DNA of 64,000 nucleotides from Aminithiophilus ramosus (GTDB lineage Bacteria > Synergistota > Synergistia > Synergistales > Aminithiophilaceae): NCBI RefSeq assembly GCF_018069705.1, contig NZ_CP072943.1, positions 1,167,260 through 1,231,259 of the forward strand, given 5' to 3'. Numbering within the stretch: the stretch's first letter is position 1; each line of letters begins with the position of its first letter. The notes beneath the pieces are model-generated. The model was not told the DNA's origin. It searched no databases and saw nothing but the letters and a program-made list of their open reading frames with translations. Below, piece by piece: positions 456 to 36,531 of the stretch. The translations under genes and the position numbers were made by a program.

Positions 456-500
456 TTGACGCATTTTTGACGGCCGGAGACTATCGTTCCTTCAAGGACA
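456..500 (+). promoter_or_regulatory. Promoter/operator module with paired TTGACG boxes (copy A)
   Basis: TTGACG occurs at 456-461 and 467-472, exactly 11 bp apart. They are followed 20 bp after the first box by TATCGT (482-487) and then CAAGGACA (493-500). The same arrangement occurs before the BCCT gene at 5596-5639. The module lies about 60-100 bp upstream of the first GTG of the operon. An 11-bp repeat puts both boxes on one DNA face, as expected for an activator or repressor dimer; a normal 17-bp -35/-10 spacing is not obvious. The regulator is unknown. Confidence 0.55.
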
Positions 501-557: not shown

Positions 558-1022
558 GTGAAAGTCACCATGACCGTCAACGGACGGCTCCGCGAGGCCG
601 ACGTCGAGGCCACGCTCCGTCTCGTCGATCTTCTGCGGAACCGCTTCGGGCTGACGAGCGTCAAGGAAGGGTGTTCGGAGGGAGAGTGCGGCGCCTGTAC
701 CGTCCTCGTCGACGGCAAGGCCGTCACCTCCTGCACGGTCCTCGCCTTTCAGATGGAGGGCAGGTCGGTGACGACGCTGGAGGGTCTGAGCGACGGCGAG
801 CGTCACCCCCTCCAGCAGGCCTTCATCGATAACGACGCCGTCCAGTGCGGCTTCTGCACGCCCGGCATGATTCTGTCGGCCAAGGCCCTTCTCGACGCCA
901 ACCCCTCTCCCACGGAGGAGGAAGTCCGCCGCGCCCTGGAGGGAAACCTCTGCCGCTGCACGGGCTATCTCCCCATCGTCAGGGCCGTTCTCGACGGCGC
1001 CGAGAGGCTCCGTTCGCGATGA
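558..1022 (+). CDS. Molybdenum hydroxylase, small [2Fe-2S] subunit (xanthine dehydrogenase family)
   Basis: A 154-residue electron-transfer subunit carrying two [2Fe-2S] clusters, passing electrons from the molybdopterin subunit to the FAD subunit. The N-terminal plant-ferredoxin fold shows GCSEGECGACTV and a following SCTV cysteine. The C-terminal helical domain shows QCGFCTPGM and GNLCRCTGY. Length and motif order match CoxS/XdhC-type proteins. The GTG start at 558 is chosen for the GGGAGGG site seven bases upstream. It overlaps the FAD subunit by four bases (ATGA), so the three subunits are translationally coupled. The substrate cannot be read from this subunit; the adjacent MIO-less lyase and BCCT transporter suggest an imidazole-derived compound rather than a purine (inference). 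Confidence 0.93.
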   Translation: MKVTMTVNGRLREADVEATLRLVDLLRNRFGLTSVKEGCSEGECGACTVLVDGKAVTSCTVLAFQMEGRSVTTLEGLSDGERHPLQQAFIDNDAVQCGFCTPGMILSAKALLDANPSPTEEEVRRALEGNLCRCTGYLPIVRAVLDGAERLRSR

Positions 1023-1822
1023 GGGGCGCCCGTCCCACCGACCTGGGAACCTTGAGGGCCCTGCTGGCCTCCGATGACGGAAAGGGGCGCCTCGTCGCGG
1101 GAGGGACCGATCTCGTCGTCCACCTTCACCGACATCCCGAGGAGGAGCCCCATCTGATCGACATCTCCTCCCTCGAAGAGCTGCGGCAGATCGAGAAAGT
1201 CGGCGACGCTCTTTCCGTCGGCGCCGCCGTCACCTTTTCCGAGATCGGGGACTCGCCCCTCATCCGAGAGAGGGCCGGCGCCCTCGCCATGGCCGCCGCC
1301 GTGATGGGATCGACGCAGATCCGCAACAGGGCCACTCTGGGTGGGAACGTGGCCAACGCCTCGGCCGCCGCGGACGGCACGTCGGCCCTCTGTGCCCTCG
1401 ACGCTCTGGCCGTCGTCGAGGACAGTCGGGGCAACGAAGAGAGGGTTCCCGTCCGAACCCTCATCACCGCTCCGGGGAAAACCCTCATCGGCCCGGGCCG
1501 ATTCCTCCGCTCTTTCCTGATTCCTCCTCAGGGAGGGCCTTCGGCCTTTTTCAAGACGGGCAGCCGCCGGACCGTCACCATCTCCAAGCTCAACATCGCC
1601 CTGGGCCGCCGTCTCGTTCTTGGCGCCCTGGCCCCCGCTCCTCTCGACGTTCCCGAGGCGAAGACCCTTCTCCGAGGCCGATCGGAGGAGGCCTTTCTCG
1701 ACGGCCTGACGGCCGCCGTCGAGCGGGCCATCCCGACGCGGAGCTCTCTCGCCTACAAGCGGAGCGCCGTCCGGGGCCTGGGCGACGATCTCTGGAGATT
1801 CCTTTTGGAGGCGGGAAGATGA
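1019..1822 (+). CDS. Molybdenum hydroxylase, FAD-binding subunit
   Basis: A 267-residue CoxM/XdhB-type FAD subunit of the xanthine dehydrogenase family. It accepts electrons from the iron-sulfur subunit and passes them to a soluble acceptor. FAD-contact signatures are visible: VAGGTDLVV near residues 27-36 and GGNVANASAAADG near residues 108-120. A CO-dehydrogenase-flavoprotein C-terminal domain follows. The ATG at 1019 overlaps the preceding stop, and the 3' end overlaps the large-subunit ATG at 1819. The length is slightly short of the usual 275-295 residues but no core motif is missing. An earlier in-frame start would overlap the upstream gene heavily and is rejected. Confidence 0.9.
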   Translation: MRGARPTDLGTLRALLASDDGKGRLVAGGTDLVVHLHRHPEEEPHLIDISSLEELRQIEKVGDALSVGAAVTFSEIGDSPLIRERAGALAMAAAVMGSTQIRNRATLGGNVANASAAADGTSALCALDALAVVEDSRGNEERVPVRTLITAPGKTLIGPGRFLRSFLIPPQGGPSAFFKTGSRRTVTISKLNIALGRRLVLGALAPAPLDVPEAKTLLRGRSEEAFLDGLTAAVERAIPTRSSLAYKRSAVRGLGDDLWRFLLEAGR

Positions 1823-4050
1823 CCCTTCGCTACGTCGGCCGCGACGTGCGGCGCAACGACATCGTCGAGAAGGTCTCGGGACACCTCCGCTACCTCGCCG
1901 ATCTGCCGCCCGGGGGAACGACCCACGGCCGCCTCCTCCTTTCCTCCGTCGCTCACGGCCGGGTCCGCTCCGTCGACGGCACCGAGGCGGCGAAGGTGCC
2001 GGGCTTCATCCGCCTTTTCACGGCCGCCGACGGACCGAAACGGCGCTACAACAGCGCCCTTTTTCTTCCCGACCAGACCGATCACCGCGATCAGCAGGTC
2101 TTCACCGACTACCCTCTCTTCGTAGGCGACATGATCGGCGCCGTTCTGGCCGAGACGGACGAGGCCGCAAGAAAGGCGGCGTCCCTCGTCAACATCGATT
2201 ACGAGCCTCTCGAGGCCGTCACCGACCTCATGGAGGCCCTGACGGCACGCTCCTGCCGCAAGGGCTTTCCCCAGGTCATCGAGGGACGCCTCGCCTGCGG
2301 CGACGGGGAACCCCGAGGCGAAGGTCTCGTCGAGGTGACGACGACGGTCCGGACGCCCAAAATCCATCACGCCGCCATGGAAAACCACATCTGCAGGAGC
2401 CGCCTCGACTACGGCGACGTCCTCGTCGTCGAATCGCCCTGTCAGATGATCTTCACCGTCCGCTTCGTCCTCGCCGAGCTTTTCGACCGCCCCGTCAACC
2501 GCGTGCGCGTCGTCAAGGTCCCCATGGGCGGCACCTTCGGCGGCAAACAGGAGGTCATGATCGAGCCGGCCTGCGCCCTCATGACCCTCGCCACGGGCCT
2601 CCCGGTCCAGCTCAACCTGGACCGGCGCGAAACGATCATCGCCACCAGGACGCGGGCGGCCTCGTCGGGAACGGTCCGCACCGTCGCCGACGGCCAGGGG
2701 CGCTTCCTCTTCCGCGAGACGGACGTCGTCGTCGACGCCGGGGCCTACGCGACGGGAGGCCATCGCGTCGCCATGGCCATGGGGAAGAAACTCTTCCGCC
2801 TCTATCGCATCCCCTCCCAGACCTTCCGGGCCCGGACGACCTTCACCCACACGACGCCCTGCGGCGCCTGCCGCGGCTACGGCTCGCCCCAGATCCACGC
2901 CATCACCGAGATTCACATCGATTTCCTGGCCCGCAGGCTGGGCCTCGATCCGGCGACCCTGCGTCTGAAGAACCTCGTCGAATCCGGCGATCTCGACCCC
3001 ACCGGCGCTCCCCCCCTGGGAAACGCCCGCATCAAGGACTGCCTCGTCCGAGGCATGGAGCGTTTCCGCTGGGACGAGCGGGTCCTGGCCGATCCCGGCG
3101 AAGGCCGCTACCGGCGGGCCGTGGGGCTCGCCTGTGCCACCCACGGCAACGGCTACTACGGCTCGCCCTTTCCCGACTTCCTTTCCATGTCCATCCGCTT
3201 CTGCGAAGACGGAACGGCGCTCGTCAACGCCGGCCTTCACGAACTGGGCAACGGGACGCTGACCATCGTCGGCCAGATCGTCGGCGAGGTGCTCTCCCTC
3301 GATCCCTCGCGGATCGTCGTCGTCGAGGGAGACACACAGACGGCCCCCTTCGACGTGGGCTGCGTGGCCAGCCGCGTCACCTACGTCTGCGGCGCCTGCG
3401 CCTACGAGGCGGCCCGAAAGCTGAGAGACCTTCTTCTCGATCAGGTTTCTCGGGCGACGGGAACGTCGCCCGAGAAGCTGAACCTCGACGACGGAAAGAT
3501 CCTCTTTGACGACGGTCGCTCTTTGCCCTACGGAGAGGCCGTCTGCCTCGTGGCGCAGAGACTCCGCGAAGAGGTGGGCATCTACCACCCCTTCAGGCCC
3601 CAGGCCAATCCGGCCTCTTTCGGCGTCCACTTCGCCGAGGTGGAGGTGGACCGCCTGACGGGTCTGACTCGGGTCACGGACTTTCTCGCCGTGCACGACG
3701 TGGGACGGGCCATCAACCCCCGCCTGCTCCGAGGGCAGATCTACGGCGGCGTCCAGATGGGAATCGGCATGGCCCTTTCCGAGGAGCTGACCTACGACCC
3801 TTCGGGACGCCCCCGGAACGACGCCTTCAGCCGCTACCCTCTCGTCAATGCCCCCGACATGCCTCCCGTCGACATCCTTCTCGTCGAGGAGGGCGAACCC
3901 GGCGGCCCCTACGGCGCCAAGAGCATCGGAGAGATCTGCACCGTCCCCACGGCGGCGGCCGTCGTCAACGCCGTCAACAGGGCCCTGGGGACGGAGCTTA
4001 CGGAGCTGCCCCTGACGGCGGAGCGCATCGTCGCCGCCCTGCATTCATAA
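1819..4050 (+). CDS. Molybdenum hydroxylase, molybdopterin-binding catalytic subunit
   Basis: A 743-residue catalytic subunit of the xanthine dehydrogenase/aldehyde oxidase family. The N-terminal a/b-hammerhead domain is followed by the molybdopterin-binding domains. Family signatures are present: GGTFGGKQE, ACRGYGSPQ, and near the C-terminus GGPYGAKSIGEIC, whose Glu corresponds to the catalytic base. Family members hydroxylate heteroaromatic carbons, and some act on nicotinate, purines or thio/oxo-imidazoles. Here it is followed 12 bases later by a MIO-less histidine-lyase homologue, and both share an upstream promoter module with a betaine-type transporter. I infer a role late in degradation of ergothioneine or a related imidazole. 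Hypoxanthine or nicotinate hydroxylation cannot be excluded. Confidence 0.9.
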   Translation: MTLRYVGRDVRRNDIVEKVSGHLRYLADLPPGGTTHGRLLLSSVAHGRVRSVDGTEAAKVPGFIRLFTAADGPKRRYNSALFLPDQTDHRDQQVFTDYPLFVGDMIGAVLAETDEAARKAASLVNIDYEPLEAVTDLMEALTARSCRKGFPQVIEGRLACGDGEPRGEGLVEVTTTVRTPKIHHAAMENHICRSRLDYGDVLVVESPCQMIFTVRFVLAELFDRPVNRVRVVKVPMGGTFGGKQEVMIEPACALMTLATGLPVQLNLDRRETIIATRTRAASSGTVRTVADGQGRFLFRETDVVVDAGAYATGGHRVAMAMGKKLFRLYRIPSQTFRARTTFTHTTPCGACRGYGSPQIHAITEIHIDFLARRLGLDPATLRLKNLVESGDLDPTGAPPLGNARIKDCLVRGMERFRWDERVLADPGEGRYRRAVGLACATHGNGYYGSPFPDFLSMSIRFCEDGTALVNAGLHELGNGTLTIVGQIVGEVLSLDPSRIVVVEGDTQTAPFDVGCVASRVTYVCGACAYEAARKLRDLLLDQVSRATGTSPEKLNLDDGKILFDDGRSLPYGEAVCLVAQRLREEVGIYHPFRPQANPASFGVHFAEVEVDRLTGLTRVTDFLAVHDVGRAINPRLLRGQIYGGVQMGIGMALSEELTYDPSGRPRNDAFSRYPLVNAPDMPPVDILLVEEGEPGGPYGAKSIGEICTVPTAAAVVNAVNRALGTELTELPLTAERIVAALHS

Positions 4051-4062
4051 GGAGGTTTTCAG

Positions 4063-5583
4063 ATGGATCCCCTCGTTCTTGACGGCCGAGGTCTGACCGT
4101 CGCCAAGGTCATCGACGTGGCCCGCCGGGGCCGCAAGGTCGCCATCGCCCCCGAGGCCATGGAGGGCGTCGAGCGCTCCTGGGCCCTTCTGCAGAAGATG
4201 GCCCTGACGGGCTCGCAGAAAGTCTACGGGATGAACACCGGAGTGGGCGCCAACAAGGACCGGGAGATCTCTCCCCGCTACTACGGCGAATACAACCGCA
4301 ACATGCTTCTGGCCCACTGCGACGGCATCGAGCCCTTCGCCTCGGAGGAACAGGTCCGTGCCGTCCTCGTCGTCCGCCTCAACAGCCTCCTCGCGGGACG
4401 AACGGGCATGGCCCCCGATCTGGTCCGCCTTCACAGCGACTTCCTCAACGAGGGGATCCATCCCTGCCTTCCCCTGAGGGGCTCCGTGGGCGAGGCCGAC
4501 ATCACCAACATGTCCTTCATCGGCCTGGCCATGATCGGCGAGGGCGATGTCTCCTTCCGGGGCCGACGCGTCGCCGCCGCCGAAGCCATGAAAGAGAGAG
4601 GGCTCGATCCCGTCACCCTGGGCCCCAAGGACGGGCTCTCCCTTGTGAGCTCCAACGCCCTCGGGGCGGGGCTGGCCGTCCTCCTCGTCGACGCCCTGGA
4701 CAGACTCATCGACACGGCCGATCTGGCCTACGCCCTGACGATGGAGGGATTCAAGGGGAACGTCTCTCCCCTCGACCCGGCCCCCTACCGTTTCCGCCCC
4801 TATGACGGCCCACTCCGGAGCCTGAACTTCGTCCGCGCCCTTCTCGAAGGGAGTTATCTGTGGCTCCCCGACGTGACGGAGGCTCTCCAGGACCCTCTGA
4901 GCATCCGCTGTTCCTGTCAGGTCCACGGCGCCCTCCGTGACGCCCTGGAGTACGCCCGGAAACAGATCGAGATCCACATCAACAGCTCCGACGACAACCC
5001 CTGCATCGTCTATGAAGAGGAGCGCATCGTTCCCTGCGCCAACTTCGAACCTCTCGGCTGGGTCCTGGCCTTCGAAATGATGGGCATCGCCCTCAGCCAT
5101 CTTTCCAAGACGGCCGTTCACCGGACGCTGCGCATGGCCTCGCCCCGTTTCACCGGCCTGGCCCGATTCCTGACGCCCACCGACGGCAAGGTCCACGCCT
5201 TCGGGACCATCCAGAAGCTCTTCTGCTCCCTCGACAGCGAGGTGCGCCACCTCTCCAATCCCGTCTCGGCCGACTACAGCTCCCTCTCGGAGGATATGGA
5301 GGACAGGGGGAACAACACGCCTTACGTGATGCTCAAGACGGGGCGCATCGTCGAGGCCGTCGAGGTGATCCTGGCCATCGAGATGATCCACGCCGCCCAG
5401 GCCATCGACCTCCGCAGGGCCACCCGCCTCGGCAGAGGAACGGCGGCGGCCCTGGCCGCCCTCCGCGAGGACGTTCCCTTCCTCGACAGGGACCGTAACC
5501 TCTCCCTCGACGTGACGGCGGCGACGAGGCTCGTCCGGGAGGGGACGCTCCTGAAGCGGGCTCGGGAGGCCCTCGAAAGATGA
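4063..5583 (+). CDS. HAL/PAL-superfamily lyase lacking the MIO triad (ergothionase-like candidate)
   Basis: A 506-residue homologue of histidine ammonia-lyase across its full length. Seen: KVYGMNTGVG with the catalytic-type Tyr55, RGSVG, QDPLSIRC and a SDDNP motif. In true HAL, GSVG is followed by Ala-Ser-Gly (142-144 in the Pseudomonas enzyme), which cyclises to the MIO electrophile. Here those positions are Glu144-Ala145-Asp146, so MIO cannot form. Ergothionase is a known MIO-independent member of this superfamily; it eliminates trimethylamine from ergothioneine to give thiourocanate. The neighbouring BCCT transporter and molybdenum hydroxylase fit that role (inference). A strong AGGAGG precedes the ATG. 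It could act on another histidine betaine such as hercynine. A canonical HutH annotation would be wrong on the residue evidence. Confidence 0.85.
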   Translation: MDPLVLDGRGLTVAKVIDVARRGRKVAIAPEAMEGVERSWALLQKMALTGSQKVYGMNTGVGANKDREISPRYYGEYNRNMLLAHCDGIEPFASEEQVRAVLVVRLNSLLAGRTGMAPDLVRLHSDFLNEGIHPCLPLRGSVGEADITNMSFIGLAMIGEGDVSFRGRRVAAAEAMKERGLDPVTLGPKDGLSLVSSNALGAGLAVLLVDALDRLIDTADLAYALTMEGFKGNVSPLDPAPYRFRPYDGPLRSLNFVRALLEGSYLWLPDVTEALQDPLSIRCSCQVHGALRDALEYARKQIEIHINSSDDNPCIVYEEERIVPCANFEPLGWVLAFEMMGIALSHLSKTAVHRTLRMASPRFTGLARFLTPTDGKVHAFGTIQKLFCSLDSEVRHLSNPVSADYSSLSEDMEDRGNNTPYVMLKTGRIVEAVEVILAIEMIHAAQAIDLRRATRLGRGTAAALAALREDVPFLDRDRNLSLDVTAATRLVREGTLLKRAREALER

Positions 5584-5595
5584 GAACCCATCCTT

Positions 5596-5639
5596 TTGAC
5601 GTTTTTTTGACGGCTCCGGCCTAGCATCGCCCAAGGACG
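5596..5639 (+). promoter_or_regulatory. Promoter/operator module with paired TTGACG boxes (copy B)
   Basis: TTGACG at 5596-5601 and 5607-5612 is again 11 bp apart. TAGCAT follows at 5622-5627, exactly 20 bp after the first box as in copy A, and CAAGGACG lies at 5632-5639. It begins 13 bases after the lyase stop codon and about 90-130 bases before the BCCT start. Matching spacing and sequence suggest one regulator controls enzymes and importer together. Confidence 0.55.
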
Positions 5640-5726: not shown

Positions 5727-7343
5727 GTGGAAAACGAGCAGCAGAAAACGAAGAGAGCGCCCGACGCAATCCGTTCCGATCAGGTCAAGGTCCGCATGGG
5801 GGTTTTCCTCCCCATGTCGTTGGCCTTCGTCGTCATCATCGCCCTGGGGCTCCTGGCACCCAAGGCCTTCTACGACGCCGAGAACGCCATCGTCAACTTC
5901 GCCTTCCAGGATTTCGGCTGGCTTTTCCAGATTTCGGGCAACATCTTCCTCTTCATCTGTCTTTTTTTCTGTTTTTCCAGATACGGCGACATCCGCTTCG
6001 GCGGCAAGGACGCCAAGCCCGAAATGAGCACCTGGAACTGGTTCGCCATCTCCCTCTGCGCCGGCATCGCCACGGGGATCGTCTTCTGGGGCATCGCCGA
6101 ACCGCTCTACCACTTCATGGATTCGGGCGTCTTCGAGACGCTGGGCATCACGGCCAAAACGGAAGAGGCGGCCATGTTCTCCATGGTGAGCACCTACATC
6201 CACTGGACTTTCATCCCCTACGCCATGTACGCCATCTGCGGCCTGGGCATCGCCTACGGAGCCTATAACATGAACCTTCCCTACCGCGTCAGCTCCACCC
6301 TCTACCCCCTCGCCGGCAGACACATCGAAGGTCCCGTCGGCACCGTCGTCGACAGCCTCTGCCTCCTGGCCATCGCCGGAGGCGTGGCGGCCGTCCTCGG
6401 CGTGGGCACCATGCAGATCTCCAGCGGCATCCAGATCATGACGGGCATCGCGGCGGGCCGGGCCATGTGGGTCGCCGTCGTGGCCGCCATCGTCGCCGTC
6501 TACATCATTTCGAGCTACACGGGCCTCAACCGGGGAATCCGCTGGCTTTCGGACAAAAACGCCAAAATTTTCCTGGCCCTTCTCGTCTTCGTCTTCGTCT
6601 TCGGCCCCACCCGTTTCATCCTCTCCCTGGGCACGCAGGCGACGGGCCATTTCCTCGACGACTTCTTCGTCCGTACCCACTACCTGAGCCCCGTCGACGG
6701 GTCGGCCTGGCCCCGCTGGTGGCCCATCTACTACTGGGCCATCTGGCTCGCCTACGCCCCCCTGATCGGCATGTTCCTGGCCCGCCTCGTCAAGGGACGG
6801 ACGATCCGGCAGTTCATGTTCATGAACCTCTTCATGCCCGCCTTCTTCGGCTTCCTCTGGTTCTCCGTCTTCGGCGGCGCCGCCATCCACCTCGAGCTCT
6901 CGGGGCAGGGGCTCTGGGAGGCCATCCACGAGGGGGGCAAGCTGGCCCTGGAGAAGTCCGTCTTCGAGTTCCTCAAGTTCTATCCTCTGACGAAAGCCAT
7001 CAGCTGGATCTTCATGGGAACGGTCTTCGTCTCCATCGTCACCATGGCCGACTCGATGACCTCCACCGTGGCCTCCCTCTCGACGACGGCGGCCCACCAG
7101 GAAGGGCTCGAGCCTCCCGCCGCCATGAAGATCTTCTGGGGCGTCGTCATGTCCTCGGTGGCCATCATCAACCTCATCAGCGGCAGCGGCGGCGGCGAGA
7201 TCAGCGGCATCGACGCCACCAAGCAGATCGCCACCGTGGCGGGATTCCCCATCCTCTTCCTCATGATGGTCATGGCCTTCTCCATCTGCTGGATGATCGT
7301 CCGCCACGCCAAGGGCGAGAGGGTACTCCTCATCAGGGAGTAG
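5727..7343 (+). CDS. BCCT-family betaine/carnitine/choline-type transporter
   Basis: A 538-residue inner-membrane secondary transporter with about twelve hydrophobic segments. BCCT carriers import quaternary-ammonium compounds with sodium or protons, or exchange them. The diagnostic central segment reads YYWAIWLAYAPLIGMFLARL, matching the family FYWAWW...P..GMF..R region that contributes the aromatic substrate cage; GRTIRQF follows. A GTG start at 5727 is chosen for the GCAGGAGGG site upstream. It has its own promoter module, almost identical to the one before the molybdenum hydroxylase and lyase operon. That makes a trimethylammonium histidine derivative such as ergothioneine the favoured substrate (inference); glycine betaine or carnitine are alternatives. 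Confidence 0.9.
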   Translation: MENEQQKTKRAPDAIRSDQVKVRMGVFLPMSLAFVVIIALGLLAPKAFYDAENAIVNFAFQDFGWLFQISGNIFLFICLFFCFSRYGDIRFGGKDAKPEMSTWNWFAISLCAGIATGIVFWGIAEPLYHFMDSGVFETLGITAKTEEAAMFSMVSTYIHWTFIPYAMYAICGLGIAYGAYNMNLPYRVSSTLYPLAGRHIEGPVGTVVDSLCLLAIAGGVAAVLGVGTMQISSGIQIMTGIAAGRAMWVAVVAAIVAVYIISSYTGLNRGIRWLSDKNAKIFLALLVFVFVFGPTRFILSLGTQATGHFLDDFFVRTHYLSPVDGSAWPRWWPIYYWAIWLAYAPLIGMFLARLVKGRTIRQFMFMNLFMPAFFGFLWFSVFGGAAIHLELSGQGLWEAIHEGGKLALEKSVFEFLKFYPLTKAISWIFMGTVFVSIVTMADSMTSTVASLSTTAAHQEGLEPPAAMKIFWGVVMSSVAIINLISGSGGGEISGIDATKQIATVAGFPILFLMMVMAFSICWMIVRHAKGERVLLIRE

Positions 7344-13419: not shown

Positions 13420-15678
13420 TCAGAAACCCCCTCGCATCCCCGCCGCTTCGGTGACGGCCTTCGCCTTGTGGCGGACCGCCATGGCCCGATAAAGAGAAAG
13501 GGCGCCTCGGCGATAGGTCTCGGGAGTCTCGGTGAGGGCCTCGTCGAGAAGGCCTCCCCTTCGGACTCCGGCCTTGATGCGCCCTTTGACCTCGAGCTGC
13601 AGGGCCAGCCAGAACCGTTTCCCCAGGGCTTCGACGAGGGCGTCACCCCGTCGGAGGGCCGTCAGGGCCCTTTCTTCCTCCCCCTCCCTGGCGGCATCCC
13701 AGGCAAGGAGGCTGAAGAGGATCCCGTTCCCCCGCCAGGCCTCGCTCTCCTCCTGCAGGGACCGGGCCGCTTCCAGATGACGCAGAAAGGCCTCATCGTC
13801 GCCGAGGTCGAAGGCCACGTGAGCCGCGTTGCTGTGGAAGAGACAGAGACCGCGGAAAAGCCCCTCGTCACGGCACTGGCCGACGCAGGCCCCATAGAGA
13901 TCCAGAGCCTCGTCGAGCCGCCCCCTGCGATGGGCGCTGTCGGCCAGATAGTTTCGGGCCGCCGCCGTCTGGAGGGTGTAAGGCTCGTCGAGGGCCTCGA
14001 CGGCGCGGAAACGATCGATGGAGGCCTCCAGAGCCCTTTCGGCTCCGTCATACTCTCCCCGGAAGAGACGGGCCATCCCCAGAAAACGCAGAGCCACGCC
14101 CCGGAGGGCCTCGAGGCGGGCCTTCCCCGCCGATTCGAGGAGACTTCGACTATGGCGCTCCAGAAGGGAGGGCTCTTCCGTCTGGATGGCGTAGTAGCAG
14201 AGATGCTGGAGGGCCTCGAGCTCCAACGTCCCGTCCCGCCGCCGCCGCGCCTCTTCGAGGGCCTTCGCGACGAGCAGTTTCCCCTGGACGTAGTCGCCCC
14301 ACCAGAGACGATAGCCGCCGCTGAGGGCGCGGAAAGAGGCCTCGAGACGCTCCAGCCGCGCCGAGGGCGTACCCTCGCGGCGGAGGCGGCGCAGAAGTTC
14401 TTCCAGGCCCGCCAGCTGCTCCCGGGTGTCCTTTCTCCCCTCCAGAGGCGCCGAGGCCCCTCGGAGGACATCGTCGCTGAGGAGGGGAAACAATTCGTAG
14501 TTGAGATGAATGTGGAGTTTCAGTCGGCGGATGGAATAGTCGAGCTCCTCCGTCGCCAGGGCCGCCCGGCGGCAGTGGCCGATGATGCGGGAACAGAGGA
14601 GATCGTTCCAGCGCCTCTCTCCCAGCTCCTCCATCAGGAGGTGGGCCAGCTCTCCGTGGAGGAGGCGTCGTCGCGCCTCGGAGAGGGAACGGTAGATGTG
14701 GTCTCTGACGGCGACGTGGCTGAACTCGATGTGAAGCCTCTCCCCCTCGTCGAGGCGCTCGGCCAGGATCGCCCCCGTTCTGAGCCTTTCGACGCGCTCC
14801 GTCAGAACCGCCTCGGAAAGCCCCGAAAAGCGGCGGAGAAGCCCCCACTCGGCGCGCGTCGAAAAGACGGAGAGCCGCTCCAAAAGGAAACGGTCCTCGT
14901 CGGAGAAATCGGCCAGAAGCCTCTCGTAGGTCTCGGCGAGGCTGGAGGGAGCCTCGTCGAGAGAGCGGCCCGCCGCCAAAAGGCGGATCACCCCCGACAG
15001 AAAAAGGGGCAGGCCGTCGGTCTGGCCGTAGAGGCGGTCGAAATCGGCGCCGGCCAGATCCCTTCCGGGAAGACAGAGGCGGCAGAAGGATTCCGTCTCG
15101 CCTCGGGAAAAGGGGGCCAGGGCGATCTCCTTCAGCTCACAGCGTCCGACTCGGGCGGCGCTGCGGAAAAGGTCCCGTCCCCGGCAGCTCCGACTGTGGC
15201 GGGTCGTGACGAAAAGGAGAAGGGGAGCCCGCCGATGGGCCAGGAAGCTCTCGAGAAGGTCGAGAGAGTCGCCGTCGAACCACTGCAGGTCCTCGAAAAC
15301 GATGGCGACGGGACAAAAGCGGGCGAGAAGGTCGAAGAGGCGGGCCATGGCGGCGCCGAGACGGAAGGGCCCGGCGGGGTGGCAGGAGGTGGCTGTCGCG
15401 GCCAGTGCGGGAAAACTCTCGGCCAGCAGGGAACGGTGGGCCGGGGGAAAGTCGAGGCCGTCGAGATCGATCCGGGCGGCCACGCCCTCGAGCAGATCGT
15501 TCCAGGGGAGAAGCGGATGGCGCTCCTCCCCCCGGGCGGCGCCGCAGGTCACGACGAGCGTTCCCGGGGGAGCCTGGCCCAGGGCCCGCGAGACGAAGAG
15601 GCTTTTGCCGACGCCGGCCTCTCCGGAGACGAAGATGGCGCGGCAGCGGTCGAAAGGCGGTTCCGTGCAGGCTCTCAC
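13420..15678 (-). CDS. STAND/AAA ATPase with TPR-rich region (C-terminal part of a split SARP-like regulator)
   Basis: A 752-residue protein with Walker A GEAGVGKS about 20 residues in and a Walker B-like IVFEDLQW near residue 90. A long helical region rich in A/L/R follows and looks like TPR repeats. This is the MalT/AfsR-type NTPase and sensor half of a transcription activator. The annotated start is a GTG overlapping the stop of the BTAD gene. However, the frame stays open upstream and encodes GGGFFGRQVELESV, matching the conserved F-x-GR-x-x-EL element that opens these ATPase domains. The true start is therefore probably inside the upstream gene, reached by a one-base frame correction at the C8 tract 15736-15743. 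Ligand and target are unknown; the IclR gene is divergent from it. Confidence 0.82.
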   Translation of the reverse strand: MRACTEPPFDRCRAIFVSGEAGVGKSLFVSRALGQAPPGTLVVTCGAARGEERHPLLPWNDLLEGVAARIDLDGLDFPPAHRSLLAESFPALAATATSCHPAGPFRLGAAMARLFDLLARFCPVAIVFEDLQWFDGDSLDLLESFLAHRRAPLLLFVTTRHSRSCRGRDLFRSAARVGRCELKEIALAPFSRGETESFCRLCLPGRDLAGADFDRLYGQTDGLPLFLSGVIRLLAAGRSLDEAPSSLAETYERLLADFSDEDRFLLERLSVFSTRAEWGLLRRFSGLSEAVLTERVERLRTGAILAERLDEGERLHIEFSHVAVRDHIYRSLSEARRRLLHGELAHLLMEELGERRWNDLLCSRIIGHCRRAALATEELDYSIRRLKLHIHLNYELFPLLSDDVLRGASAPLEGRKDTREQLAGLEELLRRLRREGTPSARLERLEASFRALSGGYRLWWGDYVQGKLLVAKALEEARRRRDGTLELEALQHLCYYAIQTEEPSLLERHSRSLLESAGKARLEALRGVALRFLGMARLFRGEYDGAERALEASIDRFRAVEALDEPYTLQTAAARNYLADSAHRRGRLDEALDLYGACVGQCRDEGLFRGLCLFHSNAAHVAFDLGDDEAFLRHLEAARSLQEESEAWRGNGILFSLLAWDAAREGEEERALTALRRGDALVEALGKRFWLALQLEVKGRIKAGVRRGGLLDEALTETPETYRRGALSLYRAMAVRHKAKAVTEAAGMRGGF

Positions 15679-16442
15679 CGACTCCAGCTCGACCTGGCGA
15701 CCGAAAAAACCTCCCCCCTCCGGAGGCAGATCCCTCCCCCCCCGTCACAGCCCCCTTCTCGGAGGAGGAGATACCCGTAGAGGGCGATCGTCTCCTCCGA
15801 GGGCCCCAGATCCAGCTCCGAGGCCAGCCGTTCCGTCAGAAGGCGGTAGGTGCGGATCATCTCGCATCTCCGCCCCGTTCGGGAATAGGCCTCCATCAGA
15901 AGACAGCCCGCCTCCTCGTCGACATCGGAGGCGAAGAGGGACTCCAGGCAGGAAAGGGCCCGATCGGGAGTCCCCCTGTCGAGGCAGAGTCGGCCGTAGT
16001 CTCTCATGGCCCTGCGGCGGCGGAGCTCGAAAAGAGAACGGCTCTGGCGGAGCCACTCCTCGAAGGGAGGACAGGCCGGGAGGGAAAAGCCCTCCATGAA
16101 AGGACGGAGGGAAGAGACCGTCGGAGAGGAGGAGGGGAAGACATCGAGGGCCGAAAGATCGAGACAAAACCCCTCGTCGCCGGCGACGACCCTCTGCCCT
16201 CTGTTCCGAATCAACCCCTGAGGCAGGACCTTGCGCAGCTCGTAGAGGGCGTTGCGCAGGTTCCGCGAGGCCGCTTCCCCCTCCTTGTCGCTCCAGAGAA
16301 GGTCCATCAAGGTCTCTCTCGAGGCCTGACGCTCCACGAAGAGATAGCAGGCCAGTCCCTCGACCTTGCGGAAGGGGAAGACCAGATCGACGCCATCGAG
16401 GGAAAAGCGGGGCGGACCGAGAAGCTGAACGTTCAACGTCAT
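15675..16442 (-). CDS. BTAD/winged-helix DNA-binding regulator (N-terminal part of a split SARP-like regulator)
   Basis: A 255-residue protein: an N-terminal OmpR-like winged helix (LNVQLLGPPRF...VFPFRKVEGLACYL) and then the helical bacterial transcriptional activator domain (ETLMDLLW...LRNALYELRKVL). The ATG at 16442 is chosen because GGAGGA lies nine bases upstream. Its last 30 or so residues are Gly/Arg/Ser-rich and unlike the family. They follow a run of eight G on the coding strand, after which the adjacent frame carries the conserved start of a STAND ATPase domain. The two genes together are one base short of a single 1,007-codon frame. It may be a real coupled pair, a phase-variable gene, or a sequencing slip. 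Confidence 0.82.
   Translation of the reverse strand: MTLNVQLLGPPRFSLDGVDLVFPFRKVEGLACYLFVERQASRETLMDLLWSDKEGEAASRNLRNALYELRKVLPQGLIRNRGQRVVAGDEGFCLDLSALDVFPSSSPTVSSLRPFMEGFSLPACPPFEEWLRQSRSLFELRRRRAMRDYGRLCLDRGTPDRALSCLESLFASDVDEEAGCLLMEAYSRTGRRCEMIRTYRLLTERLASELDLGPSEETIALYGYLLLREGGCDGGGGICLRRGEVFSVARSSWSR
15736..15743. repeat. C8/G8 homopolymer at the frame break of the SARP-like regulator
   Basis: Eight consecutive C on the plus strand (G on the coding strand). Nine would join the BTAD and ATPase frames in one protein with an intact FFGRQVELE element. Such tracts are typical slippage points in replication and in sequencing. Confidence 0.7.
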
Positions 16443-16500
16443 GGGCCATCGTCCTCCGTGGACATTATAGGCCAAAGGGGAGAGGGCGAGGAATTTCCCG

Positions 16501-16529
16501 TTGACAGTGTCCTGTCTTTTCGGTATCGT
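16501..16529 (+). promoter_or_regulatory. Sigma-70-type promoter of the IclR gene
   Basis: TTGACA (16501-16506), a 17-base spacer and TATCGT (16524-16529) make a near-consensus promoter. The predicted transcription start is about 16536, some 45 bases before the IclR ATG. Confidence 0.75.
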
Positions 16530-16548
16530 TCTGCATGAGAGCATTTAC

Positions 16549-17436: not shown

Positions 17437-19467
17437 ATGGAAAGCAACGCCACCATCGGTGCAGCCATGACGATCAAACTCGATGCGACCCTGCCCGAGC
17501 ATCCCCACTTCGCTTCAGGCATACGGCGCGCCCCCGACAGGGGCTGGACGCTGAGCCGCAAGGAGACGGAGCTGGCCCTGAAGAACGCCCTCCGCTATGT
17601 CCCCGAGGAACACCACGCCCTTCTGGCTCCGGAGTTCATGGAAGAGCTGCGTACCATGGGCCGGATCTACGCCTACCGCTTTCGTCCCGAGGGACGGATC
17701 TGGGGCCGGCCCATCGATGAGTACAAGGGCAAGTGTCTCGCCGGCAAGGCCTTCCAGGTCATGATCGACAACAACCTCGATTTCGACGTGGCACTCTACC
17801 CCTACGAGCTGGTGACCTACGGCGAGACGGGACAGGTCTGCCAGAACTGGCTCCAGTACCGGCTCCTCAAGAAATACCTCGAGGAACTGACCGACGACAC
17901 GACTCTCGTCGTCGAAAGCGGCCATCCTCTGGGGCTCTTTAAGTCTCGGCCCGAGGCCCCCCGAGTGATCGTCACCAACGGGCTTCTCGTCGGCATCTTC
18001 GACAACCAGACCGAATGGCACCGGGCCATGCAGCTCGGCGTGACCAACTACGGCCAGATGACGGCCGGCGGCTGGATGTACATCGGCCCCCAGGGCATCG
18101 TCCACGGCACCTTCAACACCCTTCTCAACGCCGCGCGCCAGCGCCTCGGCATCGGTCCCAAGGAGAACCTCGCCGGAATCCTCTTCATCTCCTCCGGCCT
18201 GGGCGGCATGAGCGGCGCCCAGCCCAAGGCCATCGAGATCGCCGGCGGCGTCGGCATCGTCGCCGAGGTGGACGCCTCGCGGATCGAGACGAGGCGCAGC
18301 CAGGGCTGGGTCAGCGCCGTGGCCGAAACCTGCCAGGAGGCCTTCGCCTTGGCCAGGGAGGCCCAGGAGAAGAAGCAGGCCCTCTCCATCGCCTATCACG
18401 GCAACATCGTCGATCTGCTCCAGTACGCCGTGGACAAGGGCATCGAGATTCCCCTTCTCTCGGACCAGACCTCCTGCCATGCCCCCTATGACGGCGGCTA
18501 CTGCCCCGTGGGCCTCTCCTTCGAGGAGCGCACCGCCATGCTCCACGACAATCCGGACGAATACCGCCGCCGCGTCGACGAGACGCTGAGAAGGCACTAC
18601 GAATTGATCAAGACCCTTGTCGAGCGGGGAACCTACTTCTTCGACTACGGCAACTCCTTCATGCGGGCCGTCTACGACGCCGGCGTCAAGGAGATCTGCA
18701 AGAACGGCGAGAACACCTACGACGGGTTCATCTGGCCCTCCTACGTCGAGGACATCATGGGTCCCGTCCTCTTCGACTACGGCTACGGGCCCTTCCGCTG
18801 GTGCTGCCTGAGCGGCAAGCCCGAGGACCTGCGCAGGACCGACAGGGCCGCCATGGAGTGCATCGACCCCAACCGGCGAAGCCAGGACTACGACAACTGG
18901 ATCTGGATCCGCGATGCCGAGAAGAACCGTCTCGTCGTGGGCACCCAGTGCCGCATCCTCTATCAGGATGCCGAGGGGCGGACCAGGATCGCCCTCAAGT
19001 TCAACGACATGGTCCGCAAGGGCGAGATCGGCCCCGTCATGCTCGGCCGCGACCACCACGACGTCTCCGGCACCGATTCGCCCTACCGGGAGACGTCCAA
19101 CATCAAGGACGGCAGCAACATCTGCGCCGACATGGCCACTCAGTGCTTCGCCGGCAACGCCGCCCGAGGCATGACGCTCTGCTCCCTCCACAACGGCGGA
19201 GGCGTCGGCATCGGCAAGGTCATCAACGGCGGCTTCGGCATGGTCCTCGACGGATCGGAGCGGACCGACGAGATCATCCGGTCCGCCATGATGTGGGACG
19301 TTCTGGGCGGCGTCGCCCGCCGCGCCTGGGGCCGCTGCGACCACGCCGTCGAGGTGGGCGCCGAGGTGAACGCCAAGTACCCCGGCAGCTACCACATCAC
19401 CCTCCCCTACGTCCCCGCCGAGGAACTCGTCGCCAAGGCCGTGGACAGAGCCTGGGAGAAACGATAG
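17437..19467 (+). CDS. hutU: Urocanate hydratase, long (eukaryote-like) form
   Basis: A 676-residue urocanase that adds water to urocanate using tightly bound NAD+ as electrophile. The NAD-loop motif GLGGMSGAQPKA and the active-site region YGYGPFRWCCLSG are clear. Most bacterial HutU proteins are about 555 residues with GLGGMGGAQ and a Cys in F-C-x-G-x-G-P-F-R-W. This one has the length and the GMSGAQ/WxCxSG variants of the animal-type enzyme, and Asp replaces that Cys. AGGAGGG precedes the ATG. No canonical hutH or hutI is in the window. Thiourocanate, the product of the candidate ergothionase at 4.1 kb, is a possible alternative substrate, since thiourocanate hydratase belongs to this family. 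Formate-THF ligase downstream fits recovery of the formimino carbon. Confidence 0.93.
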   Translation: MESNATIGAAMTIKLDATLPEHPHFASGIRRAPDRGWTLSRKETELALKNALRYVPEEHHALLAPEFMEELRTMGRIYAYRFRPEGRIWGRPIDEYKGKCLAGKAFQVMIDNNLDFDVALYPYELVTYGETGQVCQNWLQYRLLKKYLEELTDDTTLVVESGHPLGLFKSRPEAPRVIVTNGLLVGIFDNQTEWHRAMQLGVTNYGQMTAGGWMYIGPQGIVHGTFNTLLNAARQRLGIGPKENLAGILFISSGLGGMSGAQPKAIEIAGGVGIVAEVDASRIETRRSQGWVSAVAETCQEAFALAREAQEKKQALSIAYHGNIVDLLQYAVDKGIEIPLLSDQTSCHAPYDGGYCPVGLSFEERTAMLHDNPDEYRRRVDETLRRHYELIKTLVERGTYFFDYGNSFMRAVYDAGVKEICKNGENTYDGFIWPSYVEDIMGPVLFDYGYGPFRWCCLSGKPEDLRRTDRAAMECIDPNRRSQDYDNWIWIRDAEKNRLVVGTQCRILYQDAEGRTRIALKFNDMVRKGEIGPVMLGRDHHDVSGTDSPYRETSNIKDGSNICADMATQCFAGNAARGMTLCSLHNGGGVGIGKVINGGFGMVLDGSERTDEIIRSAMMWDVLGGVARRAWGRCDHAVEVGAEVNAKYPGSYHITLPYVPAEELVAKAVDRAWEKR

Positions 19468-23836: not shown

Positions 23837-24939
23837 GGGGGATCACCTCCGGCCCCACAGCGGCAGGGGCAGTCCGGCCTGGGCGTCACGGCGACGCGCC
23901 GGGCCTCCCAGCGGGAGAGGTCCAGGACGAGGCGGGCCCCTTCGGTCAGGGGTTTCTCGAAGCCGGTTAGGAAGCGGAGGGCTTCGAGAGCCATGAGGCT
24001 GCCGACGATGCCCACCTGAGGGGCGATGACGCCGTGGCGGTAGGGACCGTTGACGGCCGCCACTTCGGGGCGGGAGAAGTCGGGCCGCCAGGGCGGAAGG
24101 GAGCAGCGGTAGCAGGCCGTCCTGCCCGGAACGACGAGGGGACCGACGGAAAGGGATGTGGCCGTGACGCCGGCCGTGAAGAGGCCCGCCGTTTTCGCCC
24201 TGTAAAGGGCATCGTTGAACCAGAGAAAGACGGCCTCCCGCGGCGAGTCGGCCGTGAGAAGGGCCAGGTCCTGCCCTTCCATCACGGAGGCGAAGGCCTC
24301 GACGCCGTCCATGGCCCTATCGACGAAGCGGAAGTCGATGTCGCCGTTCCACCGCGGGAGCTCGCGGCGGAGGACGTCGATCTTGGAGCGCCCTATGTCC
24401 TCGGGACGGTAGAGGCACTGGCGGTTCAGGTTGGAGGGCTCGACGTCGTCGAAGTCGACGACGGTCAGATGGCCCACGCCGAAGGCGACGAGGTCCTGGA
24501 GGAGGTGAGAACCGCCGCCGCCGACGCCGAAGAGGACGACCCGACAGGTCTCGATCCGCCTCTGGGCCTCGGCGGCGAAGGAGACCCCGTCGGGACGCCA
24601 GGCGCCGAAAAACAGGCGTTGCCGGCCGTAGCGGTCATCGTCCTCCGTCACCACCTCCCGGCCCTCCTCGAGGAGGCAGAGGGCATCCAGACGGTCGACG
24701 AAGGAGAGAAGGGCCTCGGCGGCGACGTCATAGCCCATGAGGGAGAGAATGGAGAGGAGCTCGCCCAGAGTGCGGCTCCCGTCGAAGAGCTGGACCAGGA
24801 CGCGCTGCCAGGGCTCGAAGCGGGTCACGAAGGGGGCCGGCAGGAAGGGGAAGAGCACCTGCTCTTCCGGAAGGCCCACGGCCATGATGGTCCGTTTGAA
24901 TAGGGGCCGCCCCTCCCAGGCCGAGAAACGTCCACCCAT
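23827..24939 (-). CDS. ThiF/MoeB-like E1 enzyme with N-terminal RRE-like region
   Basis: A 370-residue protein. Residues from about 20 to 95 (VQLFDGSRTLGELLSIL... ending LDALCLLEEG) look like a PqqD/RRE winged helix, the module that binds RiPP leader peptides. The rest is an E1-like ATP-binding domain: FGVGGGGSHLLQDL, VVDFDDVEPSNLNRQ, CYRC and CPCRCG zinc-type cysteines, and APQVGIVGSLMALEAL. RRE-ThiF fusions recruit precursor peptides in YcaO pathways and adenylate acids in others such as MccB. It begins at an ATG sharing one base with the TolC-like stop. I infer that it delivers the Nif11 precursor to YcaO; adenylation of another substrate is possible. Confidence 0.82.
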   Translation of the reverse strand: MGGRFSAWEGRPLFKRTIMAVGLPEEQVLFPFLPAPFVTRFEPWQRVLVQLFDGSRTLGELLSILSLMGYDVAAEALLSFVDRLDALCLLEEGREVVTEDDDRYGRQRLFFGAWRPDGVSFAAEAQRRIETCRVVLFGVGGGGSHLLQDLVAFGVGHLTVVDFDDVEPSNLNRQCLYRPEDIGRSKIDVLRRELPRWNGDIDFRFVDRAMDGVEAFASVMEGQDLALLTADSPREAVFLWFNDALYRAKTAGLFTAGVTATSLSVGPLVVPGRTACYRCSLPPWRPDFSRPEVAAVNGPYRHGVIAPQVGIVGSLMALEALRFLTGFEKPLTEGARLVLDLSRWEARRVAVTPRPDCPCRCGAGGDPPCI

Positions 24940-26249
24940 CAGGGAGAGCCTCCTTCCAGGCGATCTTTCGGCACCCTTTCCAGGTAATGGCCCAGGGCCT
25001 CCCGGGCCTTGGCCTCGGCGAGGCAGACGTCGAGACGGGCCTCGACGAGCTGCGTCTTGGCCTGCTGGTCCTTCTCGAAGGCATCCATGAGGGCCAGGGT
25101 GTCCTTCAGGCGCTCCTGGAAAAGGGTCCAGATATCGCTCTGATTTTCGTCGGTGTGCCGCTGCTGCCGTTCGAGGACCTCGACCTTTCGCATGGCCGAC
25201 GCCCACTCGTCGCAGGCCTGACGGTAGTGCAGACGGATCTCGTCGTCGGCGGCCCTGAGACGGCGAAGGGATTCTTCAACCAGATTGACGTTTTTCCTCA
25301 CGTCGGCCTTCTCCTTCCCCCCGTCGACGAGGGGGATGTCGACGTAAAGGAGGAGATCCCACTCGTTTTCCTCGACGTCCGAGTAGGGGTAGGTGTAGTC
25401 GGTCCAGAGGCGGTAGGTGGCCTGAAGCTGGACCGTGGGCGTTCTGCCTTTGGCGGCCAGGGCCAGGAGCGTACGGGAATAGTCGACGCCGGTCCGGGCC
25501 GAGGCGAGTTTGGGATTGTTCCTGAGGGCCTCGTCGAGACTGCCCGGCAGGGAGGGCACGGGATCGGGACCTTCCTGAAGAGGGACGAGTCTCTCGCCTC
25601 CGGCGTACCAGGCAAGTTCCTCCAGGGCCTGAATTTCGGAGGCCTTGGCCTCCTCGAGGGCCAGCAGGCCCTCTTCCAGGTTGACGCGGCCTTTGGTGAC
25701 GTCGATTTTCGTGACGAGCTGCTGCGAGAGCTGGAGCTCGAGAAGATCCAAGGCCTGACGGCGCTCTTCGAGGACCGCTTCGAGAAGGTCCGCCTTCCGC
25801 CGGGCGAAAAAAGCCTTCCAGTAGGCCTGTTCTGCCTCGGAGAGGACGGAGTTGATCGTCGCGGCGTAGTCGTGGAGGGCCTGGCGGTAGGCGAAGAGGG
25901 CCTTCCGTTCCGTCTCCCTGTAGAGGCCGGACACGTCCACGTTCTGGCGCAGCACCAGGGAGAGGGTCTGGTCGCTCCGGCTGTCGGGATAGTAGGTCCA
26001 TCTCTCGAAGGATCCGGAGAGAGAGACGTTGGTCTTCTGGTTCGCGACGACGACGCGGGCATCTTCGCGAAGGGCCTGGGCCTTGAAACGGTCGGCCTCG
26101 ATGGAGGGATTTTTCTTCAAAACGACGAGAAGACAGCTCTCCAGGTCGAGGACGCTCCCCGGAGGAGCGCCCTTTTCCTCGGCGCCACGGCAGGGAGAGG
26201 CCCCCAAGAGGGAAAAGAGAAAGACGAGGGTCATCACGCGACGGAACAT
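24939..26249 (-). CDS. TolC-family outer-membrane efflux protein
   Basis: A 436-residue outer-membrane factor with an N-terminal signal peptide (MFRRVMTLVFLFSLLGASPCRG; a Cys near the cleavage point might allow lipidation). Two halves of long alpha-helical coiled coil follow, rich in Glu/Leu/Ala, as in TolC. The ATG at 26249 is preferred to a GTG at 26273 because GGGAGGTG then lies at proper spacing. With the HlyD-like adaptor and the two ABC transporters it completes a type-I-like path across both membranes, and shows that the host has an outer membrane. Confidence 0.85.
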   Translation of the reverse strand: MFRRVMTLVFLFSLLGASPCRGAEEKGAPPGSVLDLESCLLVVLKKNPSIEADRFKAQALREDARVVVANQKTNVSLSGSFERWTYYPDSRSDQTLSLVLRQNVDVSGLYRETERKALFAYRQALHDYAATINSVLSEAEQAYWKAFFARRKADLLEAVLEERRQALDLLELQLSQQLVTKIDVTKGRVNLEEGLLALEEAKASEIQALEELAWYAGGERLVPLQEGPDPVPSLPGSLDEALRNNPKLASARTGVDYSRTLLALAAKGRTPTVQLQATYRLWTDYTYPYSDVEENEWDLLLYVDIPLVDGGKEKADVRKNVNLVEESLRRLRAADDEIRLHYRQACDEWASAMRKVEVLERQQRHTDENQSDIWTLFQERLKDTLALMDAFEKDQQAKTQLVEARLDVCLAEAKAREALGHYLERVPKDRLEGGSP

Positions 26250-26269
26250 TGCGGGCGGCACCTCCCTTT

Positions 26270-29158: not shown

Positions 29159-29172
29159 TGTCTCTCCCTCCC

Positions 29173-31380: not shown

Positions 31381-32669
31381 CGTCCTTCCCCCACGCCGAG
31401 AAGGTACTTCTTCAGGAAAGGCAGGACGAGGGACAGAGGCCTCTGGCGGCGCGTCACGATCTCGACGGAGCAGACCGAATTCCTGTCGATGGTGACGGCA
31501 GGCCCCTTGCCCGACGTCCAGACGTAGCCGCTTGCCGTCTCGTCCGAGTCGACGAGGTCGATGAAGACCCCCATGGGAGCCCCCTCGCGGGAAAGCTGCT
31601 CGACGAGGTCCTCGTTGCCGAGGAAGCGAAGCATGGTCTTCTTCGAGACGGGTGCGTCGGAGACGCTGAGGACGACGCCCCGAATGGAACCGTATTCCTC
31701 CCGCTTGACCATCGTCGGCGTGACGAGGGCCTCCATGTCCTTGAGGATTTTCTTGCCCTGAGCGGCTGGGACGTAGACCTGGGCGAAGAGCCCGGCGTCC
31801 TTGCCGCTCAGGGCGCGATTGGCCTCTTCGATGACGAAGATGGCCTCGCCGCCGACGACCATTTCCCCGGCGTTCCGGTAGAGGCCGACGATGTAGCCCG
31901 AGACGGGGCTGGTCAGGATCCGGTTCTCCTCGAGAGTCGTCTTGAGCTGGCGGACGCGCTCCTCCATCTGGACGATCTGGTAGGCCAGATCTCTTCTTTC
32001 CTTCTCCCACTGGGTCTTGGACTGAACGATGGAGACGGGAAGCTTGGCCAGATTCTCCCTGTAGGTGAGAATGTCCTGCAAGGTCTTATCGTACTTGTCT
32101 CGGACGTCGTTGTACTCCCCCTCGGTGACGAGCTGACGCTCGAAGAGGTTGCGGTATTTCGCCTCCATCTCCTTGAGCCTTCGGGCCCTCTCCCCGGCCG
32201 AGGCGATGGAAGCCTCGAGAGTCCGGCGCTGTTTTTCCGTGTAATCCGTCTCGTAACCGCGCCGGGAGGTCTCGCTCGATTCGGCCTGAATCAGCTGGCC
32301 GCGGAGGTCTTCCAGCTCCCTTTCGGCCTCCTCGAGCTTCTGTTCCGTGTCGATCTGGTCGATCTGTCCCAGCACGTCGCCCTTCTCGACATAGCCGTTG
32401 AGAGAGCCCGACAGGCTCAGAATCCGGCCTCCTTCGCGCGAGCTGACCTCGACGACGTTGCCCATCCCCAGAAGAATGCCGGAGCCTGTCACCTTCGTCG
32501 CCACCGATCCGAAAAAGCCCCAGAAGAGAAGGCCGCCCAGAGAGGCCAGGCAGGCCAGAAGCAGTATCCAAGCCTTGGGACCGACGAAGCGCATCGTCCG
32601 GTCCAGCTGCTCCGGAGAGGAGAGGATATCGATGGCCTTCTTCCGAAAGAGCTTTGTCCCTTCCGCCAC
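31377..32669 (-). CDS. HlyD-family secretion adaptor (NHLP bacteriocin system)
   Basis: A 430-residue membrane-fusion protein: a short cytosolic tail, one membrane segment around residues 33-52 (AWILLLACLASLGGLLFWGF), a lipoyl-like half, a long coiled coil (about residues 105-235), then the second lipoyl half and a beta-barrel. It bridges the inner-membrane ABC exporters and the TolC-like channel. Translation starts at GTG 32669 behind AAGGAGGTG. It overlaps the C39-ABC gene by four bases. Its size and order match the third component of Nif11-leader peptide export systems. Confidence 0.9.
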   Translation of the reverse strand: MAEGTKLFRKKAIDILSSPEQLDRTMRFVGPKAWILLLACLASLGGLLFWGFFGSVATKVTGSGILLGMGNVVEVSSREGGRILSLSGSLNGYVEKGDVLGQIDQIDTEQKLEEAERELEDLRGQLIQAESSETSRRGYETDYTEKQRRTLEASIASAGERARRLKEMEAKYRNLFERQLVTEGEYNDVRDKYDKTLQDILTYRENLAKLPVSIVQSKTQWEKERRDLAYQIVQMEERVRQLKTTLEENRILTSPVSGYIVGLYRNAGEMVVGGEAIFVIEEANRALSGKDAGLFAQVYVPAAQGKKILKDMEALVTPTMVKREEYGSIRGVVLSVSDAPVSKKTMLRFLGNEDLVEQLSREGAPMGVFIDLVDSDETASGYVWTSGKGPAVTIDRNSVCSVEIVTRRQRPLSLVLPFLKKYLLGVGEGR

Positions 32670-32793
32670 GGGTCACACACCTCCTTGCCCTTTTTTCGCC
32701 CTCTGCCCGTCCCTCTTTCCCCGAAGATCGGGGCGTTCCCCTTCGAAAAAGACTTCGGTGACCGCCTCCGACGACGGGACTTCCCGGCTCGGA

Positions 32794-36491: not shown

Positions 36492-36531
36492 GGCAAAACC
36501 TCCTTCTGGGCGGCTTCAAATCCTGGCCCCT

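Follow-up and report, generated by a model that had tools for sequence, protein, structure and literature searches.

A routine annotation would name the PF00221-family protein (446 bits against the Pfam profile) that is encoded in this 64,000-nucleotide stretch of the Aminithiophilus ramosus genome, hereafter called the window, a histidine ammonia-lyase (HAL, HutH). The protein lacks the Ala-Ser-Gly triad from which HAL forms its MIO cofactor; its substrate is, almost certainly, ergothioneine, a fungal antioxidant from which it would release trimethylamine. The features considered below are collected in Table 1.

Table 1 Positions of the features discussed, numbered within the window.
Feature	Position	Strand	Remarks
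Promoter motif upstream of operon, TTGACGn twice at an 11-bp interval	456–487	+	8 bp from -10-like TATCGT
[2Fe-2S] small subunit of xanthine-dehydrogenase-type molybdoenzyme	558–1022	+	Under every equivalog cut-off; linkage
FAD subunit of molybdoenzyme	1019–1822	+	Inferred start overlaps preceding stop; linkage
Molybdopterin subunit of molybdoenzyme, candidate reductive thiourocanate desulfurase	1819–4050	+	Linkage, co-occurrence
Predicted ergothionase (ergothioneine trimethylamine-lyase), MIO-less aromatic-lyase homologue, 506 aa	4063–5583	+	
Codons of Glu144-Ala145-Asp146, short loop opposite HAL Ala-Ser-Gly-Asp	4492–4500	+	88-sequence alignment
Second, only other genomic copy of promoter motif, before BCCT gene	5596–5627	+	-10-like TAGCAT
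BCCT-family transporter, candidate ergothioneine importer	5727–7343	+	Linkage
AAA-ATPase/TPR half of regulator	13420–15678	-	
BTAD (SARP-type DNA-binding) half of same regulator	15675–16544	-	
Urocanate hydratase HutU	17704–19467	+	Coordinates not anchored to start codon; 12 kb from lyase

The shortened cofactor loop

The open reading frame of the lyase is intact, follows a Shine-Dalgarno sequence (AAGGAGG), and has an exact counterpart (100% identity) in another assembly of A. ramosus, which rules out a frame, strand, or sequencing artefact. The register of the cofactor loop was taken from an alignment of 88 relatives that includes 49 ergothionase-type and 10 HAL rows, with P. putida HAL as the reference. 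In that enzyme, GSVG is followed by Ala142-Ser143-Gly144-Asp145, whereas in the lyase it is followed by Glu144, a gap, Ala145, and Asp146, which makes the loop one residue shorter. Glu144 pairs with HAL Ala142, Ala145 with Gly144, and Asp146 with Asp145, an aspartate that is invariant in both groups. In every one of the 49 ergothionase-type rows, Ser143, the residue that cyclizes, has no counterpart. Because the same short loop is found in these 49 sequences, which come from Synergistota, Bacillota, Pseudomonadota, and Treponema, and because the reading frame is identical in the other assembly, the loop is no local error.

The preliminary description of this locus placed Glu-Ala-Asp (residues 144–146) where HAL has Ala-Ser-Gly (142–144). 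The triad is indeed absent from the protein, as expected of an ergothionase and not of HutH, but the register requires correction: Glu-Ala stands for Ala-Ser-Gly, and Asp146 falls outside the triad. The further claim that MIO cannot form is strengthened because the serine itself is deleted outright. Judged from the alignment, MIO formation is excluded for this lyase.

Relationship to ergothionase and HAL

The best match of the lyase in a phmmer search of the PDB is the ergothionase of Treponema denticola (6s7j/6s7q; E 2.7e-134, 452 bits, 44% identity). HAL comes next with 217 bits, a score that no other HAL exceeds. An AlphaFold model built with 28 aligned homologues (pLDDT 90.8) superimposes on 6s7j at 1.4 Å with a TM score of 0.96, compared with at least 2.0 Å for HAL; the predicted fold is that of ergothionase. 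In the tree, MIO-type HALs and ergothionase-type sequences part with support of 100/100. The lyase belongs to a subclade of seven rows (the window species, Dethiosulfovibrio-like bacteria, and other Synergistota; 100/100) that is placed, with weak support of 82/44, as the sister of the T. denticola ergothionase clade. The lyases of B. arboris and P. denitrificans fall on the same side of the tree, and their genes adjoin those for a thiourocanate hydratase (NF058530) and a thiohydantoin desulfurase (NF058529) whose scores exceed the curated cut-offs. Because of these two loci, the window lyase is flanked on both sides in the tree by enzymes of known ergothioneine pathways. Clustering with MIO enzymes, named beforehand as grounds for abandoning the ergothionase assignment, was not found; by sequence, fold, and tree the lyase lies nearer to the characterized ergothionase, with which it also shares the short loop.

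The warning that a routine HAL label would be wrong proved justified. The lyase scores 339 bits against the cut-off of 539 for the HAL equivalog TIGR01225, a shortfall of 200 bits, and homologous loci are publicly labelled hutH or histidine ammonia-lyase. No NCBIfam ergothionase model was matched by the lyase. At another place, the A. ramosus genome carries a separate gene for a complete HAL of the MIO type (GSVGASGDL).

In the alignment, HAL residues Tyr53, His83, Gln277, Arg283, Phe329, and Glu414 correspond to Tyr55, His85, Gln276, Arg282, Phe328, and Glu413 of the lyase, and HAL Tyr280 is replaced by Leu279. Lys385 is present in 48 of the 49 ergothionase-type rows and in none of the 10 HAL rows. 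The lyase thus contains Tyr55, Arg282, Lys385, and Glu413, the four conserved residues of ergothionase, which are reportedly catalytic in the T. denticola enzyme; for the lysine and glutamate, this role is also suggested by conservation. Maurer et al. reportedly studied the T. denticola ergothionase in 2019 (PDB 6s7j, 6s7q). Glu413-Asp414 is followed by Arg (EDR) in the seven-row subclade and by His (EDH) in T. denticola ergothionase. Since there is no electrophilic cofactor, catalysis would depend on a good leaving group together with acid/base chemistry by Tyr55, Arg282, Glu413, and Lys385.

A Sinorhizobium pSymA protein tagged hutH (L039:8001-9575) is ergothionase-like with Ala replacing the family lysine, and a gene annotated as dimethylsulfoniopropionate lyase lies nearby. 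Three loci in Bacillota and Proteobacteria (L003, L040, L043) carry ergothionase-like genes beside a gene of the ornithine-cyclodeaminase family and have no molybdoenzyme; these lyases possibly act on another substrate.

The A. ramosus genome also contains, outside the window, a member of a second MIO-less lineage of the HAL family (L006:1441-2994; G000:C1:2659296-2660849). In most of its 26 Synergistota proteins, GSVGY or GSVQY precedes a deletion of three residues that removes Ser143, Gly144, and Asp145. This lineage scores 312 bits with HAL and 162 bits with ergothionase, and its predicted fold is likewise nearest to HAL. These scores and the fold prediction, together with an unrooted tree, suggest that it probably lost MIO independently. 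Its genes lie near a related molybdoenzyme trio in two loci (L098 and L099); in two others (L058 and L052), an ergothionase gene is adjacent or close by. This second lineage is more novel than the ergothionase finding itself.

Conserved neighbours and a shared promoter motif

Three molybdoenzyme genes with overlapping stops and starts precede the lyase, which follows after 12 bp as the last gene of a tightly packed operon. All three subunits score below every curated equivalog cut-off. The molybdopterin subunit finds its best PDB match in 4-hydroxybenzoyl-CoA reductase, itself a reductive member of the family, and no desulfurase is among its PDB matches. The BCCT gene downstream of the lyase falls below the cut-offs of the glycine-betaine, choline, and carnitine BCCT models.

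A search of 188 Synergistota genomes, from which homologous loci were collected (an earlier contig scan had given 4 relatives), revealed that an ergothionase-type lyase is present in 32. Scores of the molybdopterin subunit show a gap between 529 and 378 bits, above which lie 35 genomes. Both genes occur in 30 genomes, the lyase alone in 2, the molybdoenzyme alone in 5, and neither in 151 (Fisher p about 3e-27). Of the five genomes that have only the molybdoenzyme, one (G038) contains a partial lyase next to the trio, two (G165, G128) are represented by short contigs, and two (G022, G020) keep the molybdoenzyme with no adjoining ergothionase. Lyase and molybdoenzyme lie within about 10 kb of each other in 24 of 28 Synergistota loci, and 19 of the 28 contain a BCCT gene. 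A three-subunit enzyme of the xanthine-oxidase family (558–4050 in the window) is thus tied to ergothionase. Up to four lyase paralogues are found in some Synergistota (G035).

Two of these loci (L055 and L060) carry lyases of the T. denticola ergothionase clade. Their BCCT proteins are 80–81% identical to that of the window and their molybdoenzymes 64–67%, whereas the lyases share only 46–47%. Because carrier and molybdoenzyme are more alike than the lyases, the lyases of all three loci probably belong to one pathway, and most simply they would share a single substrate.

Within the same genus, one genome (G022) has a syntenic locus that lacks lyase and BCCT genes and retains the molybdoenzyme trio (L093:8290-13254). 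There the trio adjoins a carrier of the Gate family that shares 39% identity with the carrier beside HutU in the window, and the promoter motif persists with it. This species is a possible scavenger of thiourocanate.

The motif was recognized by eye and counted afterwards, which makes the argument from rarity in part post hoc: with at most one mismatch, TTGACGnnTTTTTGACGG has exactly two matches in the 3.1-Mb genome (456 and 5596), and its reversed control has none. Both copies consist of two TTGACGn repeats 11 bp apart, placed 8 bp from a -10-like TAnnnT. A scan for sigma-70 promoters found none. Stronger evidence than rarity comes from recurrence in other species: the strict 32-bp layout is found in eleven loci of related Synergistota, ahead of the same kinds of genes, and in no background locus scanned, apart from copies of the same locus. 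A spacing of 8 bp to the -10 element is characteristic of SARP sites. The classical SARP site also consists of repeats in 11-bp units (PMC10972967).

Besides the window (13420–16544, minus strand), 18 of the 28 loci have a linked regulator with BTAD, AAA, and TPR domains. It occupies two overlapping frames in the window and one continuous frame in nearly all relatives checked. The split is due to an indel of one base, which the other A. ramosus assembly lacks and which is either real or an assembly error. Heptameric repeats in 11-bp units ahead of a promoter, together with a BTAD regulator, are as predicted for a SARP-type regulon, in which binding of this regulator to the motif is putative.

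Elsewhere in the window, a gene cluster that probably serves to modify and export a RiPP (24939–38145, minus strand) encodes TolC-type, NHLP-type export ABC, and HlyD proteins and two B12-radical-SAM proteins resembling RiPP methyltransferases.

A proposed anaerobic route and its relation to known systems

We are confident of a reading in which the lyase is an ergothionase; the route in which it would act is as follows. The BCCT carrier would import ergothioneine, from which the MIO-independent lyase would eliminate trimethylamine to give thiourocanate. The molybdoenzyme would then reductively strip the sulfur as sulfide, and the resulting urocanate would enter the ordinary Hut pathway through HutU in the window and through HutI and FtcD, which are encoded elsewhere in the genome. 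By analogy, the reaction needed for conversion of thiourocanate to urocanate would be reductive C-S cleavage; a gut bacterial homologue of xanthine oxidase is described in a 2025 paper as cleaving an aromatic C-S bond reductively in ergothioneine catabolism (PMC12771579, citing Feng et al. 2025). HutU, the only urocanase of A. ramosus, was considered as a thiourocanate hydratase and rejected, because its score clears the hutU cut-off and, for NF058530, is 297 against 930. Use of trimethylamine through an MttB methyltransferase was likewise rejected, since PF06253 is absent from the A. ramosus genome; trimethylamine is therefore probably excreted.

Three other readings were weighed. That the protein is a histidine or aromatic ammonia-lyase with an alternative cofactor or cyclizing triad would fit its fold and Pfam family, but the deleted serine, the lost Tyr280, the missed HAL cut-off, and the presence of a complete HAL in the same genome make this extremely improbable. 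A lyase that still releases trimethylamine and acts mainly on another imidazole betaine (hercynine, S-methyl-ergothioneine, ergothioneine sulfonate, or selenoneine) is suggested by the EDR subclade, its weakly supported position as sister of the T. denticola clade, and the multiple paralogues of some Synergistota. Such related substrates do exist, since NCBIfam separates S-methyl-thiourocanate enzymes. Yet Lys385 is retained, the adjoining molybdoenzyme suits the elimination of a thione sulfur, an atom absent from hercynine, and the same carrier and molybdoenzyme accompany lyases of the T. denticola clade. We regard this substrate shift as distinctly unlikely.

Alternatively, the lyase could be an ergothionase whose thiourocanate is excreted, with the molybdoenzyme a purine or other hydroxylase linked to it for an unrelated reason. 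The subunits do lie below every curated cut-off, and their likeness to the published desulfurase is one of description. Linkage and co-occurrence across the phylum argue against a chance neighbour, as do the restriction of the promoter motif to operon and BCCT gene and, in G022, the persistence of the trio together with the motif and with a carrier similar to the neighbour of HutU. This arrangement seems unlikely to us, and we favour ergothionase coupled to molybdenum-dependent desulfuration.

Under that reading, a predictable misannotation, HAL for ergothionase, is corrected. A 2026 paper judged ergothionase rare, with poorly annotated homologues outside its coverage (PMC13405746); the frequency in Synergistota indicates that the enzyme type is commoner there than name-based surveys suggest. 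The conserved neighbourhood supports a molybdenum-dependent conversion of thiourocanate to urocanate and sulfide, and it supplies candidates for the importer and the regulator, two components of anaerobic ergothioneine degradation about which less is known. Enzymes of this type have been described before; what is new within the conserved anaerobic gene set is a candidate carrier and a candidate regulator. It is tempting to speculate, although we give the idea somewhat less than even weight, that Synergistota possess a dedicated anaerobic ergothioneine regulon. It would comprise a BCCT importer, a MIO-less trimethylamine-lyase, a reductive molybdenum desulfurase with the thione sulfur as its electron sink, and a SARP-type regulator acting through TTGACG tandem repeats, with lyase and importer lost in one sister species that would live on cross-fed thiourocanate. 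We found no description of such a regulon in Synergistota.

Compared with HutH, the lyase shares the fold and Tyr55, His85, Gln276, Arg282, Phe328, and Glu413, and differs in having no cyclizing Ser, no MIO, Leu in place of Tyr280, and an additional Lys385. It resembles T. denticola ergothionase in its fold, its one-residue-shorter loop (GEAD here, GEGD there), the Lys, Glu, Tyr, and Arg residues, and the Leu replacing HAL Tyr280. It differs in its 44% identity, in EDR for EDH, in its separate subclade, and in SSNALGA where the T. denticola enzyme has SCNAQGE. The aerobic five-step pathway of Burkholderia and Paraburkholderia likewise begins with an ergothionase of this family; it proceeds through thiourocanate hydratase and thiohydantoin desulfurase, whereas A. 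ramosus has no thiourocanate hydratase and HutU only. The gut anaerobic pathway of Feng et al. (2025), as described in PMC12771579, likewise pairs ergothionase with a molybdoenzyme of the xanthine-oxidase family in an anaerobe. The locus described here differs in its host phylum, Synergistota, in its BCCT carrier, and in its SARP-type promoter motif.
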